The translations under genes and the position numbers were made by a program. Shown here piece after piece: positions 26,670-31,691 of a stretch of DNA of 64,000 nucleotides. Origin of the DNA: Paludibacter sp. (GTDB lineage: Bacteria > Bacteroidota > Bacteroidia > Bacteroidales > Paludibacteraceae); contig JAFLKK010000013.1 of assembly GCA_019163375.1 (NCBI GenBank), positions 1 through 64,000 of the forward strand. Reading direction: 5' to 3'. The notes beneath the pieces are model-generated. The model was not told the origin of the DNA, did no database searches, and saw nothing but the letters and a program-made list of their open reading frames with translations. Each line of letters begins with the position of its first letter. The stretch's first letter is position 1.

Positions 26670-26906
26670 CTATCGTTTTAGGTTTTAATTTTCAAAAATA
26701 TCCGGCAGATAGCTTTTAATACTATCTGCCAGACTAGTCAAGATTATTGTTTCACTTTACTCTCTCTAGTTTACAAACAAAAAAATATTTCAATTTCACG
26801 CCCTAATACCAGTTACAGTGCCATAGGCATTTTTACTTTTTCATACTCGTATTTTTGGGCGATTAATTTTATGTTGCAATATTATAGCTATTTTCATTAA
26901 TAATAT
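26670..26906. other. Gene-free stretch upstream of the kinase
   Basis: No coding frame, RNA gene or repeat that I can support; AT-rich. It leads into the regulatory array that begins at 26907. Confidence 0.5.
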
Positions 26907-26945
26907 CTCACAAGATTCTACTAATTTCCTCACAAGACTCTCACA
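26907..26945 (-). promoter_or_regulatory. Upstream array of 11-bp-spaced TGTGAG boxes (probable response-regulator site)
   Basis: Read on the minus strand, TGTGAG occurs at plus-strand positions 26940-26945, 26929-26934 and 26907-26912. The intervening slot at 26918-26923 holds the degenerate TAGTAG. The start points are exactly 11 bases apart, the spacing used by OmpR/PhoB-family dimers binding one face of the helix. A second array in the opposite orientation lies at 27082-27114, and the OmpR-type regulator itself is encoded at 28670. Confidence 0.6.
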
Positions 26946-27025
26946 TTTAATACAAAAAACATTAACACGAAAATAGATTTCCAAGACACGCAAAGCTGTC
27001 AGCTACAAAAACAAAGAAAATGGGG

Positions 27026-27054
27026 TTGATTTTGATTAAAATTTAGTACTTTTG
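27026..27054 (+). promoter_or_regulatory. Promoter of the histidine kinase operon
   Basis: TTG at 27026-27028 and TACTTTTG at 27047-27054, spacer 18 bp. It lies between the two TGTGAG arrays, giving a leader of about 130 bases. Confidence 0.55.
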
Positions 27055-27081
27055 GCTGCAAATAACAAACTTGAATTTCTC

Positions 27082-27114
27082 TTATGAGAACTCTGTGAGT
27101 TCATTGTGAGATCA
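27082..27114 (+). promoter_or_regulatory. Downstream array of three 11-bp repeats (probable response-regulator site)
   Basis: Three tandem 11-mers abut exactly: TTATGAGAACT, CTGTGAGTTCA and TTGTGAGATCA. They share YTRTGAGWWCW. Their position just past the likely transcription start suggests repression by the bound regulator (autoregulation). The 15-base inverted repeat GAACTCTGTGAGTTC is contained within the array. Confidence 0.65.
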
Positions 27115-27191: not shown

Positions 27192-28535
27192 ATGTCACCA
27201 AAACACATCTCTTATATTGCAGGCATTTGCTTGTTGTTGATTATGGCAACACAAGGGTATCTGGTATATGATTATTTCAAAACAACAGACTTTGCTCTTA
27301 CACGAGAAACCGACGATATATTACTATCTTCATTTCGAAAAGATTTAACATACAGAAACAAAGCATTTGAAAAGTCGAGACACGAGGATACTATAACGAT
27401 AATACCACCCCCGAACAATAAAAACACAATCAAAGTAGATTTAAGAAAGTCTAAATCAAAAGAGAAAAGTGTAATTGGACAGCTCGACTTGGTAATTAAT
27501 ACAGTAGTAAGTACGAATTTTCCTATAAACCTTCGAAATCTGGATAGCATTACCGGAACAATCCTGGCATCCAGACAGATTCATTCGGCATATATTATCA
27601 ACCTGGTTGATCCAACAAACAATCAAGTGCTACAGCAATCTAAAAAAGGAACTATTGGTTCGTTTTTAGTGGTACCGTCCAAACTCTTACAAATAGATTT
27701 AGAAAATAAAAAATCTCTCCAACTCATATTAGTCAACCCTTTTGGAATTATCATCAAACGAATGGGATTATTGCTATTGAGCTCGTTAGTACTTTCGGTT
27801 ATTTGTCTGTTTGCCTTTCGGTTTCTGCTTATTACCCTGGCGCAACAGAAAAAATTGGTGGCATTTAAAAACGAATTTCTGGGAACAATTGCCCACGAGC
27901 TTAAGCGCCCGGTGGCCAGTCTGACAGTGAATCTGGATTGCATGACCATGCAGGCCTTTGCGGATGATAAGGCGAAGCGGGAATTGTTGGTTAGTAAATC
28001 GATAAACGCTACCACTGAGCTGAACGACACGATACGCATGATAGTGGCACTTGCAAAAGTGGAAGAGGGACTGTTGGTACTAAACAAGCAGCAGATAGAT
28101 CTACGACAACTATTCGAAGAACTGAAAACACGTTTCGTAAACAATGCATACAAAGGGGTAGTAATACAAACAGCATACGAGACAGAAGAACTAATGTTGC
28201 TAGCCGATGTTCAATTACTGAGTCAGTGTTTCGCCAACCTGATAGATAATGCTATCAAATACTCAGACAACGAAGTGCAGATTACCATCACCCTCAGAAA
28301 AGAAGCTAACCGGATAGCGATTTGGATAAAGGACAATGGCTTTGGTATTTCGCCCGAAAAGCTACCCTCTATATTTGAGAAATACAGTCGTGCCCATACT
28401 AACAACACTAAAATAAATGGCTACGGAATAGGGCTCAACTATGTAAAAACGATAGTGGAAAAACACAAGGGCGAAGTAAGTGTACAAAGTAAGGTTGGAG
28501 TGGGGAGCGAGTTTATTATAAAGCTGGTCAATTGA
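27192..28535 (+). CDS. Sensor histidine kinase
   Basis: A 447-residue membrane kinase. Two transmembrane helices (about 8-26 and 191-215) enclose a periplasmic sensor region of about 165 residues with no recognised domain. The H-box is FLGTIAHELKRPVASL, with phospho-acceptor His235; the usual HELRTP reads HELKRP here. The catalytic ATPase domain shows N-box NLIDNAIKYS, G1 IKDNGFGIS and G2 GYGIGLNYVK. It should phosphorylate the OmpR-type regulator encoded 134 bases downstream. The signal is unknown; the ABC exporter-like genes convergent with the pair may be regulated by it or help sense the signal, as in two-component/ABC resistance modules, which is inference. Confidence 0.95.
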   Translation: MSPKHISYIAGICLLLIMATQGYLVYDYFKTTDFALTRETDDILLSSFRKDLTYRNKAFEKSRHEDTITIIPPPNNKNTIKVDLRKSKSKEKSVIGQLDLVINTVVSTNFPINLRNLDSITGTILASRQIHSAYIINLVDPTNNQVLQQSKKGTIGSFLVVPSKLLQIDLENKKSLQLILVNPFGIIIKRMGLLLLSSLVLSVICLFAFRFLLITLAQQKKLVAFKNEFLGTIAHELKRPVASLTVNLDCMTMQAFADDKAKRELLVSKSINATTELNDTIRMIVALAKVEEGLLVLNKQQIDLRQLFEELKTRFVNNAYKGVVIQTAYETEELMLLADVQLLSQCFANLIDNAIKYSDNEVQITITLRKEANRIAIWIKDNGFGISPEKLPSIFEKYSRAHTNNTKINGYGIGLNYVKTIVEKHKGEVSVQSKVGVGSEFIIKLVN

Positions 28536-28669: not shown

Positions 28670-29347
28670 ATGACAAAAATACTACTGATAGAGGATGACA
28701 TCAATTTGGCTACAACGCTTATGGGGGCGTTGGAAATGTTGGATTATAAGGTGCGACATATTTTCAATGGCGACACTATAATCAATGAGTTAGCTGATTT
28801 TCAACCAGAATTAGTTCTCCTGGACGTAAACCTCAACACGAAATTGGATGGTTTCGATATAGGTAAACTAATTAGAAAGAAACATCAAACTCCTATCATT
28901 TTCACTACCTCGCGCGACGAAAGTGAGGATTTAAAAACCGGCTTCAGCATTGCCAATACCGATTATGTGCGTAAGCCTTACCGCATAATGGAAATTGAAA
29001 TGCGTATCAAAAATCTATTATCGAAACAAACTACTGACGAAAAGGGAAGCACATTTCAATTCGGTGATTTTAGTTTCTATCCAGCTGAACAAAGCATAAA
29101 GTACGAAGGCACTAAATTTCATTTGAATAATTACGAAACAGCTGTGCTCGACCTTCTTTGCCAAAACAAGGATACTTTCGTCAGCAAACAAAAGATAATT
29201 GAACTTGTTTGGAATTGCGATCAACCTAAATTAAAAGAAGGCGCTCTGAACAATATACTCAGCAACTTTCGGAAATATTTAAAGCCCGGCACAAGTATCG
29301 AATTAGAATGCAGGGTTGGCCTGGGAGTGAAATTGACGACAAAATAA
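28670..29347 (+). CDS. OmpR/PhoB-family response regulator
   Basis: A 225-residue two-domain regulator. The receiver has the acidic pocket LLIEDD (residues 5-10), phospho-acceptor Asp52 in LVLLDVNLN, a Thr/Ser switch (FTTSRDES) and Lys102 in VRKPYR. The C-terminal winged helix (about 130-225) contains LNNYETAVLDLL, SKQKIIELVW and the recognition helix region LNNILSNFRKYL. It should bind tandem 11-bp half-sites, and two arrays with that spacing flank the promoter of its own operon (26907-26945 and 27082-27114). It converges with the ABC ATPase gene, with only 21 bases between the stops and no terminator. Confidence 0.95.
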   Translation: MTKILLIEDDINLATTLMGALEMLDYKVRHIFNGDTIINELADFQPELVLLDVNLNTKLDGFDIGKLIRKKHQTPIIFTTSRDESEDLKTGFSIANTDYVRKPYRIMEIEMRIKNLLSKQTTDEKGSTFQFGDFSFYPAEQSIKYEGTKFHLNNYETAVLDLLCQNKDTFVSKQKIIELVWNCDQPKLKEGALNNILSNFRKYLKPGTSIELECRVGLGVKLTTK

Positions 29348-29368: not shown

Positions 29369-30064
29369 TTATACCGCAAAATACGCTTCCAATTCTTTCA
29401 AGGTGTCTTCACCGGTTTCAATATCTTTCACCACTTTCCCTTTTTCAAGTACCACGATGCGTTTGCACACCTCGGTAACATGGTTTAAATCGTGACTGGA
29501 AATAAGCATGGTCATATTAAAACGGGTCTGTAAATCGGTCAGAAAACGTTTCAAACGGATTTGTGATGACGGATCGAGAGCCGTGAAAGGTTCGTCGAGA
29601 ATCAACAACTTAGGCTCACCGATAAGTGCAGCTGCAATGCCGATTTTCTTTTGGTTGCCTTTCGAAAAGTCGCGGATCAGCTTCTTTGTTTCCAATATCT
29701 CTCCGTTAAAGAAGTCGCGCATCGTGTCCTGAAATTCAGTAATATCTCCTTCGGACTTATGATGCAACTTACCCACAAATTTGAAGTATTCCTCGGGAGT
29801 CAGGAAGTCAATCAGGAAGCCCTCGTCGAGAAATGAACCGGTCATCGTCTTCCAACTATCGTTGCGCATCACTTTTTGTCCTTCGATAGACACTTCGCCA
29901 TCCGAAGCCTCAATCAGGTCAAGAATCAAGCGAAAAAAGGTCGTTTTTCCTGCTCCGTTATTCCCCACCAAACCAAAGCTTTCACCTTGTGGAATGGTCA
30001 ACAATGGCAGATTCAACACGGTTACCCCGTTGTATACTTTCGTTAATTTGTTTACTTGTATCAT
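29369..30064 (-). CDS. ABC transporter ATP-binding protein
   Basis: A 231-residue ATPase subunit. Walker A is GNNGAGKTTFF, the Q-loop lies near MTGSFLDEGF, the signature motif is FSKGNQKKIGIA (a variant of LSGGQ often seen in ABC-2-type systems), Walker B is LLILDEPFTALD, and the H-switch is ISSHDLNHV. It is the partner of the DUF5687 permease gene upstream (142-base gap), and together they probably form an ABC-2-type exporter. The gap between them contains a copy of the hairpin repeat. Confidence 0.94.
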   Translation of the reverse strand: MIQVNKLTKVYNGVTVLNLPLLTIPQGESFGLVGNNGAGKTTFFRLILDLIEASDGEVSIEGQKVMRNDSWKTMTGSFLDEGFLIDFLTPEEYFKFVGKLHHKSEGDITEFQDTMRDFFNGEILETKKLIRDFSKGNQKKIGIAAALIGEPKLLILDEPFTALDPSSQIRLKRFLTDLQTRFNMTMLISSHDLNHVTEVCKRIVVLEKGKVVKDIETGEDTLKELEAYFAV

Positions 30065-30082
30065 TTACTTCGTGTTATTTAT

Positions 30083-30127
30083 GCCCCTGCCTGCCGCATT
30101 TATCTACCGTAGGTAGAGGCAAGTTCG
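30083..30127 (-). repeat. Hairpin repeat, copy B
   Basis: The 45-base core is identical to copy A in the reverse orientation on this strand. It lies between the permease and ATPase genes, and in their transcript has the same sense as copy A has in the kinase-regulator transcript. Confidence 0.85.
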
Positions 30128-30140
30128 ACTATATTATATT

Positions 30141-30197
30141 GTTACTGATTACTGATTACTGATAACTGATAACTATCAATTGTCAACTATCAACTAT
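30141..30197. repeat. Low-complexity repeats (TACTGAT / AACTATC units)
   Basis: Runs of TTACTGATTACTGATTACTG followed by AACTGATAACTATC and CAACTATCAACTATC units between the permease stop and the repeat copy B. Probably slippage-generated filler. Confidence 0.6.
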
Positions 30198-30206
30198 CAT
30201 CTAAAC

Positions 30207-31691
30207 CTACTCTCCTTGTCGGAATCCTTCGGCCAGTTTGTATTTTCTGTTATTAAACTGATTGACACATAACTTTAGAATAGGCTGACGAAGTACTATG
30301 CCCGCAAACCCTAAGATAGTGAGTACCCACAACGCTACAGTCATCGAAAAAAAGGTTGAAATGACAGTAACTAATATCATTGGAACAAACATAATGGGCA
30401 ACACAATAAGAAAACTTTTGAAGGTAGTACCCTGATAGTTCATGGCCGAGGCCTTCGATAAATCAATCCGTTTGGTATTATAGGTGCACAAATACAACAG
30501 CAGGTATATATTTACCCCGGTATTAAAAATGAAAGCTGCTAAATGCATGTACACAATCTTCATCCCGAAGTAGAAATAAGGCGTGGTAAGTACAAAGCAA
30601 AGAACATTGAATGATAATAACAAATAATAGTTAGCACTTAAATAGGTTTTTACCGGAACATTTTTCGTCATCAGGCTATCAAAATGTGCACTATCCCAAC
30701 TCACCACCCACTGTCCGTACATAAACATCAGCAGCCCTGTCATAAACATGGCTATAAAAAATAGCATTCCACTATTACTGGCATAAACCGGTTGAGTATA
30801 GAACATCAGACCGTACAACAAGAAGAAAGCCGACAAATAGAGCATGCTCTTCGTGCGTTTATGTCGGAGAATAAGTTTTATTTCCAATGCAATCAGTTCG
30901 CCCACTACTCCAAACCTATCCAAGAATGACAGATTAGCATTGAACACTTTATCTCCCTGCATTTTTCTATTAAACCGCTCGGCATAAAAATTCTGAGCAA
31001 AAAACCATTTGTTCAATAGAAATGCGAAAGATGCAGCAGCAAGTGGTAAAATCAAGCCGTAGGGTTTAAAAACAATAAATCCAAACACTGATTTTGACAC
31101 ATGAAAGAGTGAGAAAACTTCAAAGTACTCCAACGCTACGATGACACCAAGAACGGCAATCACCAAAAGGAAAGAAAGGAGATTGGAACCGTATTTACGT
31201 TTCAGAAATGAGGCCATAAAGGAATTGAACCACACCACAAAAATAAAGCTCAACACAAACCGTACAGCAACAGCAGCGCTGTAATACCCCACTACCGACT
31301 TTACAGCAAAGGGCACAACCACTAATAACAAGAAGTAGTTCAGCGGGCTGAAGAGTGCTTTAAGCAATAGAAAATTAATGAGTGACGATCGCTTTATAGG
31401 CAATACCTGATAGGGCGGTAAGTTAACCGTATTTAGTTGTTGCATAAAAAAACGGATGGCTAAACCACACAACAAAATATACAACATGCCACCGTTAAAC
31501 AACTCGGTAGGATTAAGCGTATTATGCGCCTTTTCCAGCAACTCGTTCAGTGAAAAGCCCAAAAACAAAAAAATGACAGACATATACAACGCAAAAATAC
31601 CCAGCAATAAACTTACTGCCAGGTTTCTGTAAAAGCCCTGAGCTCTTACGTTCTTTTTCCATTCTTGCGATACTAAGTGGATTATAAGCAT
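30207..31691 (-). CDS. DUF5687 family ABC permease
   Basis: A 494-residue integral membrane protein with about 12 predicted helices (for example AVSLLLGIFALYMSVIFLFL, LIFPL-type and LYLSAFFLLYGLMFYTQP segments). DUF5687 proteins are Bacteroidetes permease subunits of ABC-2-like systems and are typically encoded next to a single ATPase, exactly as here. Short cytosolic loops and a basic N-terminal region (QEWKKNVRAQGFYRNL) fit. The substrate is unknown; the neighbouring two-component system suggests an envelope-stress or antimicrobial role, which is inference. Its start is followed upstream by repeats rather than by a clear promoter. Confidence 0.85.
   Translation of the reverse strand: MLIIHLVSQEWKKNVRAQGFYRNLAVSLLLGIFALYMSVIFLFLGFSLNELLEKAHNTLNPTELFNGGMLYILLCGLAIRFFMQQLNTVNLPPYQVLPIKRSSLINFLLLKALFSPLNYFLLLVVVPFAVKSVVGYYSAAVAVRFVLSFIFVVWFNSFMASFLKRKYGSNLLSFLLVIAVLGVIVALEYFEVFSLFHVSKSVFGFIVFKPYGLILPLAAASFAFLLNKWFFAQNFYAERFNRKMQGDKVFNANLSFLDRFGVVGELIALEIKLILRHKRTKSMLYLSAFFLLYGLMFYTQPVYASNSGMLFFIAMFMTGLLMFMYGQWVVSWDSAHFDSLMTKNVPVKTYLSANYYLLLSFNVLCFVLTTPYFYFGMKIVYMHLAAFIFNTGVNIYLLLYLCTYNTKRIDLSKASAMNYQGTTFKSFLIVLPIMFVPMILVTVISTFFSMTVALWVLTILGFAGIVLRQPILKLCVNQFNNRKYKLAEGFRQGE

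Follow-up and report, generated by a model that had tools for sequence, protein, structure and literature searches.

The window, a stretch of 64,000 nucleotides from a Paludibacter sp. genome, carries a histidine kinase gene followed on the same strand by a response regulator gene, with two arrays of 11-bp repeats, two presumed promoter boxes on opposite strands and the remnant of a peptide gene upstream of the kinase (Table 1). The regulator gene starts where the initial annotation had put it, and the OmpR/PhoB affiliation of its product, also proposed there, was borne out by matches to a receiver domain (PF00072, 61.0 bits) and a winged-helix Trans_reg_C domain (PF00486, 33.1 bits), each exceeding its cut-off. 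Among NCBIfam models, the best 25 of 85 for the kinase and of 69 for the regulator all scored far under their cut-offs. The best models for the regulator were RprY (107.5 bits; cut-off 370) and the Bacteroidota PhoB (105.7 bits; cut-off 270). Both scores are so far under the cut-offs that the regulator falls outside the two equivalogs, although the RprXY and PhoRB systems of Bacteroidota provide its best models. When the kinase sensor domain was compared with the sequences of solved structures, the best match had an E of 0.86. Two genes at 29369-31691 run convergently to the regulator gene; one encodes an ABC ATPase, the other probably an ABC permease, and no link of this pair to the arrays was seen.

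Table 1. Features of the kinase-regulator locus in the window
Feature	Position	Strand	Remark
Terminator-like hairpin, 14 pairs then ATTTTTG	26700-26734	-	
Remnant of GG-leader peptide gene: start codon, three codons, stop	26833-26844	-	
Presumed -7 box TAATATTG, divergent promoter	26877-26884	-	22 nt after last TKAG core
Minus array, four 11-bp units read leftward	26902-26945	-	Presumed regulator sites; register kept in 16 loci
Units of the minus array	26935-26945, 26924-26934, 26913-26923 (degenerate), 26902-26912	-	
Presumed -7 box TACTTTTG, kinase-regulator operon	27047-27054	+	Consensus TAnnTTTG (PMC7366714)
Accessory plus array within the predicted kinase leader; three rightward units	27083-27110	+	
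Histidine kinase, 447 aa, HisKA and HATPase_c	27192-28535	+	
OmpR/PhoB-type response regulator, 225 aa	28670-29347	+	

On the minus strand, TGTGAG occurs at 26940-26945, 26929-26934 and 26907-26912, with a degenerate unit, TAGTAG, at 26918-26923; the plus strand carries TATGAG at 27083 and TGTGAG at 27094 and 27105. Every hexamer position given in the initial annotation was recovered in this way, on both strands, and TACTTTTG was found where a promoter box had been placed between the arrays. The arrays had also been described as facing each other, which is incorrect: they point away from each other, as the reading direction is leftward for the minus array and rightward for the plus array. With at most one mismatch, the tandem motif TRTGAGN5TRTGAG was found four times in the window, compared with a mean of 0.77 in shuffled sequences (0 of 100 shuffles reached four). 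Three of the four matches are exact; all three lie at this locus, and they are the only exact matches in the whole 4.66 Mb genome. The wider regulon envisaged in the initial annotation left no sign in the window's genome, as places with up to one mismatch were not more frequent than in a reversed control (35, the three local ones included, versus 45). A loose pattern of three units, one that the window's own arrays do not match, had one place elsewhere in this genome and none in its control.

Bacteroidota promoters are described as having TAnnTTTG at -7 and TTTG around -33 (PMC7366714), and the last unit of the minus array sits about where a -33 element would be. The tie between the conserved array and the presumed divergent box on the minus strand is absent from the initial annotation, which had considered the box on the kinase side.

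For a comparison across loci, the kinase was used as query, and matches at E 1e-50 or better in 22 of 48 genomes of the genus yielded 24 loci; G010 and G013, which have the regulator and only the end of the kinase on a short contig, stand outside this number. Three of the loci (L090, L100, L101) have no DNA upstream of the kinase, leaving 21 usable ones, to which four (L257-L260) were added from a sensor-domain profile search of 393 Bacteroidales genomes. Locus counts are therefore given on a base of 25. In the sequence up to 450 bp upstream of these 25 orthologous kinases, pairs of the hexamer T[GT][AT]GA[AG] at 11-bp spacing occurred 31 times, where 300 shuffles gave a mean of 0.37 and never more than 3, and pairs were also enriched at 22 bp (16) and 33 bp (7). 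With the window left out, the corresponding counts were 29, 15 and 6. Weaker excesses at 9, 13, 20 and 31 bp reflect, we think, two overlapping phases of the loose hexamer. Recurrence of the 11-bp spaced motif upstream of orthologous kinases, on which the initial annotation had made its reading depend, was thus observed, at 15 of the 25 loci.

These 15 loci, which combine a -7-like box with an array, were aligned on the box together with L204, which supplies the second half of the G030 locus. In the resulting 16 loci, TKAG units start at columns -59, -48, -37 and -26, and the last TKAG core lies exactly 22 nt before the minus-strand box. The A of every unit is present in all 16 loci and the G in 16, 15, 14 and 12, unit by unit, while the box reads TAATATTG in 15 loci and TACTATTG in one. 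Compared in pairs across array and spacer, the loci have a median identity of 0.53. No array in this register was found at ten of the 25 loci (L083, L087, L088, L093, L094, L098, L104, L258, L259, L260).

Judged by this sequence comparison, the minus array is the conserved one of the two. The plus array is clear in the window (L081), L084, L092 and L095, where its position is downstream of the -7 box of the kinase. In L085 such an array is doubtful, its score of 15.0 being equalled by background in three other loci. In L096, L097, L099, L102 and L103, the sole array ends about 7 bases from an opposite-strand, kinase-type -7 box. Both placements would suit damping of the receptor operon. The autoregulation suggested in the initial annotation may operate through the plus array, but a clear plus array is a feature of only 4 of the 25 loci.

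At 17 of the 25 loci, a gene for a peptide of 38-44 aa with a double-glycine (GG) leader lies on the minus strand, divergent from the kinase, as compared with 1 of 66 control loci (70 unrelated kinase loci minus those with less than 800 bp upstream). The mature part comprises 14-19 aa, and the 14 aligned members share in it a G preceded by D or N; L259 has H before the G. Nine of the 16 array loci carry the GG peptide behind the box (L084, L085, L089, L091, L092, L095, L099, L257, L204), and the distance from box start to peptide start codon is 36-38 nt in seven of these nine, the exceptions being L257 (52 nt) and L092 (127 nt). The seven other array loci have no intact GG peptide (the window, G002 with a broken one, G016 and four loci without a peptide ORF), and array and box therefore outlast the peptide. 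Over all 25 loci, an intact GG peptide is missing from eight: it is broken in the window, G002 and G064, G016 has an ORF without GG, and G070, G005:C55, G017 and G015:C79 have no peptide ORF. Nine of the 17 peptide loci, in turn, have no array in this register, and the site of the regulators may have changed in these clades.

Several loci show individual features. In L098 (G064), an A-run that follows the leader closely, some 209 bases before the kinase gene, interrupts the peptide reading frame; a true break and a sequencing error are both possible. Tandem peptide genes were seen in G037 (L257, three) and G003 (L093, two), and G068 (L237/L238) has two peptide copies at the end of C25 and one at the start of C20. 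Two loci have a minus-strand gene for a DUF6261 protein close to the peptide gene (L106:4447-5157, L105:3394-4158).

A profile of 14 peptides gave 19 matches below E 1e-6 in 15 of the 48 genus genomes. A single one, in G063:C33, lies away from a kinase locus or probable kinase locus, the split loci of G030 and (probably) G068 being treated as kinase loci in this count; the match in G002 contains stops. An apparent trans copy in G030:C4 was rejected, because the contig ends inside the kinase gene and the kinase locus is thus split over two contigs. Likewise, the copies at the end of G068:C25 were not retained as trans copies, as they are probably part of the locus with which G068:C20 begins. 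In the window's genome, the profile found no peptide of this family at E 0.05 or better. Among the 393 Bacteroidales genomes, the sensor profile detected four loci from outside the genus at E 2.8e-48 or better. All four carry the peptide, three having been first met in this search and one (G037) earlier. The weaker sensor relatives G305 (E 4.8e-17) and G152 (E 8.2e-13) have no such peptide; across 395 genomes of the phylum, the sensor profile returned only these two and the window.

At seven loci, a same-strand gene for a C39-peptidase ABC exporter (PCAT) follows the peptide gene at a distance of less than 2 kb. These are G029, G003, G006 and G068:C25, together with G034, G030 and G067, where one or two genes intervene. 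In G003 and G006, the reading frame of the exporter is split. A domain search of the G029 exporter recovered the C39, ABC membrane and ABC ATPase domains, and the next genes in G029 and G034 encode an HlyD domain. Genomes with the kinase have a PCAT more often (17 of 22) than the remaining ones (5 of 26; Fisher p 1e-4), and so do genomes with the peptide (13 of 14, versus 9 of 34 without; p 5e-5), both values being uncorrected for shared descent. The window's genome has one PCAT, which lies on another contig among other genes and is unlinked to the locus. A 145-aa protein is encoded between peptide and exporter in G034, G067 and G030 (L244:7654-8091, L243:4141-4578, L239:7786-8223), and its G034 copy has an HNH endonuclease domain.

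In the window itself, kinase, regulator, array and box are intact and the peptide ORF is broken. The first ~20 bases of the remnant align with relatives, with divergence thereafter, and the region contains two terminator-like sites, compared with a shuffle mean of 0.3. As kinase, regulator, arrays and box remain next to a broken peptide, the locus appears to be either a mute receiver or a system in decay. In a kinase tree (midpoint root, for drawing only, with many weak inner branches), loci outside the main group carry the peptide, which makes several losses with retention of the receiver the simplest reading. The GG label required five changes on this tree, and as few were obtained in 34 of 500 shuffles.

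We favour, with modest confidence, a two-component system that is induced by its own peptide, present in Paludibacter and in a small number of further Bacteroidales, in which the OmpR-type regulator would activate the peptide promoter. To the arrays, the fixed box distance, the divergent peptide genes, the nearby exporters and the breakage in the window, which are read directly from the sequences, this model adds DNA binding, the direction of regulation, export and the match between ligand and receptor as predicted elements. The arrays would be binding sites of the regulator encoded at 28670, and we infer that this regulator activates the divergent promoter: in its phosphorylated form, it would bind head to tail on the four-unit minus array and switch on the TAATATTG promoter, which in relatives would drive the GG-leader peptide gene. 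The PCAT-HlyD exporter would then cut and export the peptide, and the mature peptide would act as ligand of the kinase, giving rise to a positive feedback loop; the peptide is proposed as the ligand sensed by the kinase because of the gene arrangement. Where a plus array is present, the regulator would damp its own kinase-regulator operon. The whole would amount to a Gram-negative, ComCDE-like form of peptide quorum sensing or autoinduction, of which the window's species would retain a mute receiver or a decaying version.

In favour of this model are the four TKAG units at a constant distance from the box, the peptide start codon at 36-38 nt in most array loci with a GG peptide, the excess of GG peptides over control kinase loci, the peptide at all four close sensor relatives outside the genus, the near-confinement of profile matches to kinase loci, and the PCAT distribution. 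Against it count the incomplete overlap of array and peptide (9 of 16 array loci), the lack of a peptide in G305 and G152, and, in the window, the broken peptide and unlinked PCAT. Sensor and peptide distances were correlated (partial r 0.45, p 0.0002). When close relatives were thinned to a single row for each clade, the correlation dropped to 0.22 (p 0.11), and the leader gave nearly the same values as the mature part. Receptor-ligand covariation, not being robust to thinning, was therefore discarded.

Tentatively, and with slightly less than even confidence, we suggest that these loci represent a quorum-sensing family of peptide pheromones in Gram-negative Bacteroidales. A HisKA kinase would detect a divergently encoded GG peptide handled by PCAT-HlyD, and the OmpR-type array of four 11-bp units would amplify the signal. 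The signal would have been lost several times with receptor and array kept, so that the window's species would listen without a voice or use the promoter for a short RNA.

In the ComCDE and BlpCRH systems of streptococci, a GG-leader peptide, a C39-peptidase ABC exporter, a kinase and a regulator are encoded in one locus, with an HPK10 kinase and a LytTR regulator. The loci described here resemble these systems in combining a GG peptide, a C39 exporter, a kinase and a regulator and in the presumed feedback onto the peptide gene; the GG peptide and the linked exporter occur in relatives (17 of 25 and seven loci, respectively) and not in the window. They differ in their Gram-negative Bacteroidales hosts, HisKA kinase, OmpR-type regulator, divergent promoters and TAnnTTTG-like boxes. 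With a HisKA/HATPase_c kinase and a Trans_reg_C regulator, the system may thus work like ComCDE, yet it is no member of that group. As in PhoB/PhoP-type tandem operators, the predicted sites are 11-bp direct repeats adjoining the gene of an OmpR/PhoB-family regulator; unlike those operators, they comprise four TKAG-core units at one fixed distance from a Bacteroidota-type box. In one case given for OmpR-type tandem sites, 7-bp motifs are separated by a 4-bp spacer (PMC4832192).

GG-motif precursors together with PCATs also occur in the Bacteroidales clusters of PMC10352776. Of the nine clusters described there, one (BGC5) includes genes for a kinase and a regulator, and possible signalling is suggested; the survey started from RiPP enzymes, whereas the constant partner here is one kinase family with an 11-bp array. 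No description of this system was found in the peptide-signalling literature searched, in which subscription journals and preprints were thinly covered, and none of five signalling terms occurs in PMC12632263. In the usual account, as put in PMC8895600, peptide signals with kinase receptors belong to Gram-positive and small molecules to Gram-negative bacteria. A defined unit of peptide, exporter, kinase and regulator, together with its predicted operator, would open peptide signalling in Bacteroidales to direct tests. Lineages that, like the window's, have lost the peptide and retained the receiver would provide a natural example of populations that are signal-blind or that eavesdrop.

The two-component system might instead sense something else, such as envelope stress or a competitor, with an antimicrobial or other GG peptide as output and not as signal. 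GG precursors with PCATs in Bacteroidales are described as RiPP or bacteriocin candidates in PMC10352776, and among the 14 peptides there are weak matches to the leader models lant_leader_L1a (three) and bacteriocin_sig (two), the best at E 0.0032; persistence of array and promoter box where the peptide is gone would also agree with an output role. However, the pheromone models BlpC and ComC likewise match weakly, at two of the 14 peptides each, the mature part is short, and the peptide family goes with one kinase family. Moreover, the longer ORFs listed at nine peptide or exporter loci, few of them checked in Pfam, included no evident modification enzyme. We consider such an output role unlikely, if far from negligible.

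The arrays could also be bound by another OmpR-type regulator of the cell and not by the adjacent one, given that the window's genome (G000) encodes many (24 matches at E 0.001 or better). This appears improbable, as exact tandem motifs occur in that genome at this locus only and the genus array, which was sought at kinase loci, was found upstream of this kinase-regulator pair. Finally, the minus-strand promoter might mainly make a short regulatory RNA, with the peptide as a secondary passenger. In the window, the box is followed by the terminator-like hairpin with no ATG ORF of at least 20 aa between, and a structured element of ~110 nt comes directly after the box in L097, L103 and L082 and further on in L096. 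The window, however, is without this element in a pattern search, and what most often occupies the position is a GG peptide gene (17 of 25 loci), which leaves a principal RNA function improbable.

The ~110-nt element is dispersed (GCGGTRCAGTC...AGTGAAC...GACTGTACCGC; L219-L235, from position 1501 of the matched strand, about 110 nt each), and may be an RNA or a mobile element. In Rfam searches of 12 orthologous kinase loci, including L082, L084, L096, L097 and L103, the element had no match at E 1 or better, and only a tRNA and an overlapping opposite-strand match were returned; at the window locus, one match at E 0.5 was far under its cut-off. The pattern GCGGTRCNGTN{8,30}AGTGAAC occurs at 17 places in 12 of the 48 genus genomes, versus one in the reversed control, and six of the 17 are at kinase loci; the L224 match looks like chance. 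Thirteen of the 17 elements were folded and share nine outer pairs, in which 16 one-sided changes keep G-U pairing and none is two-sided.
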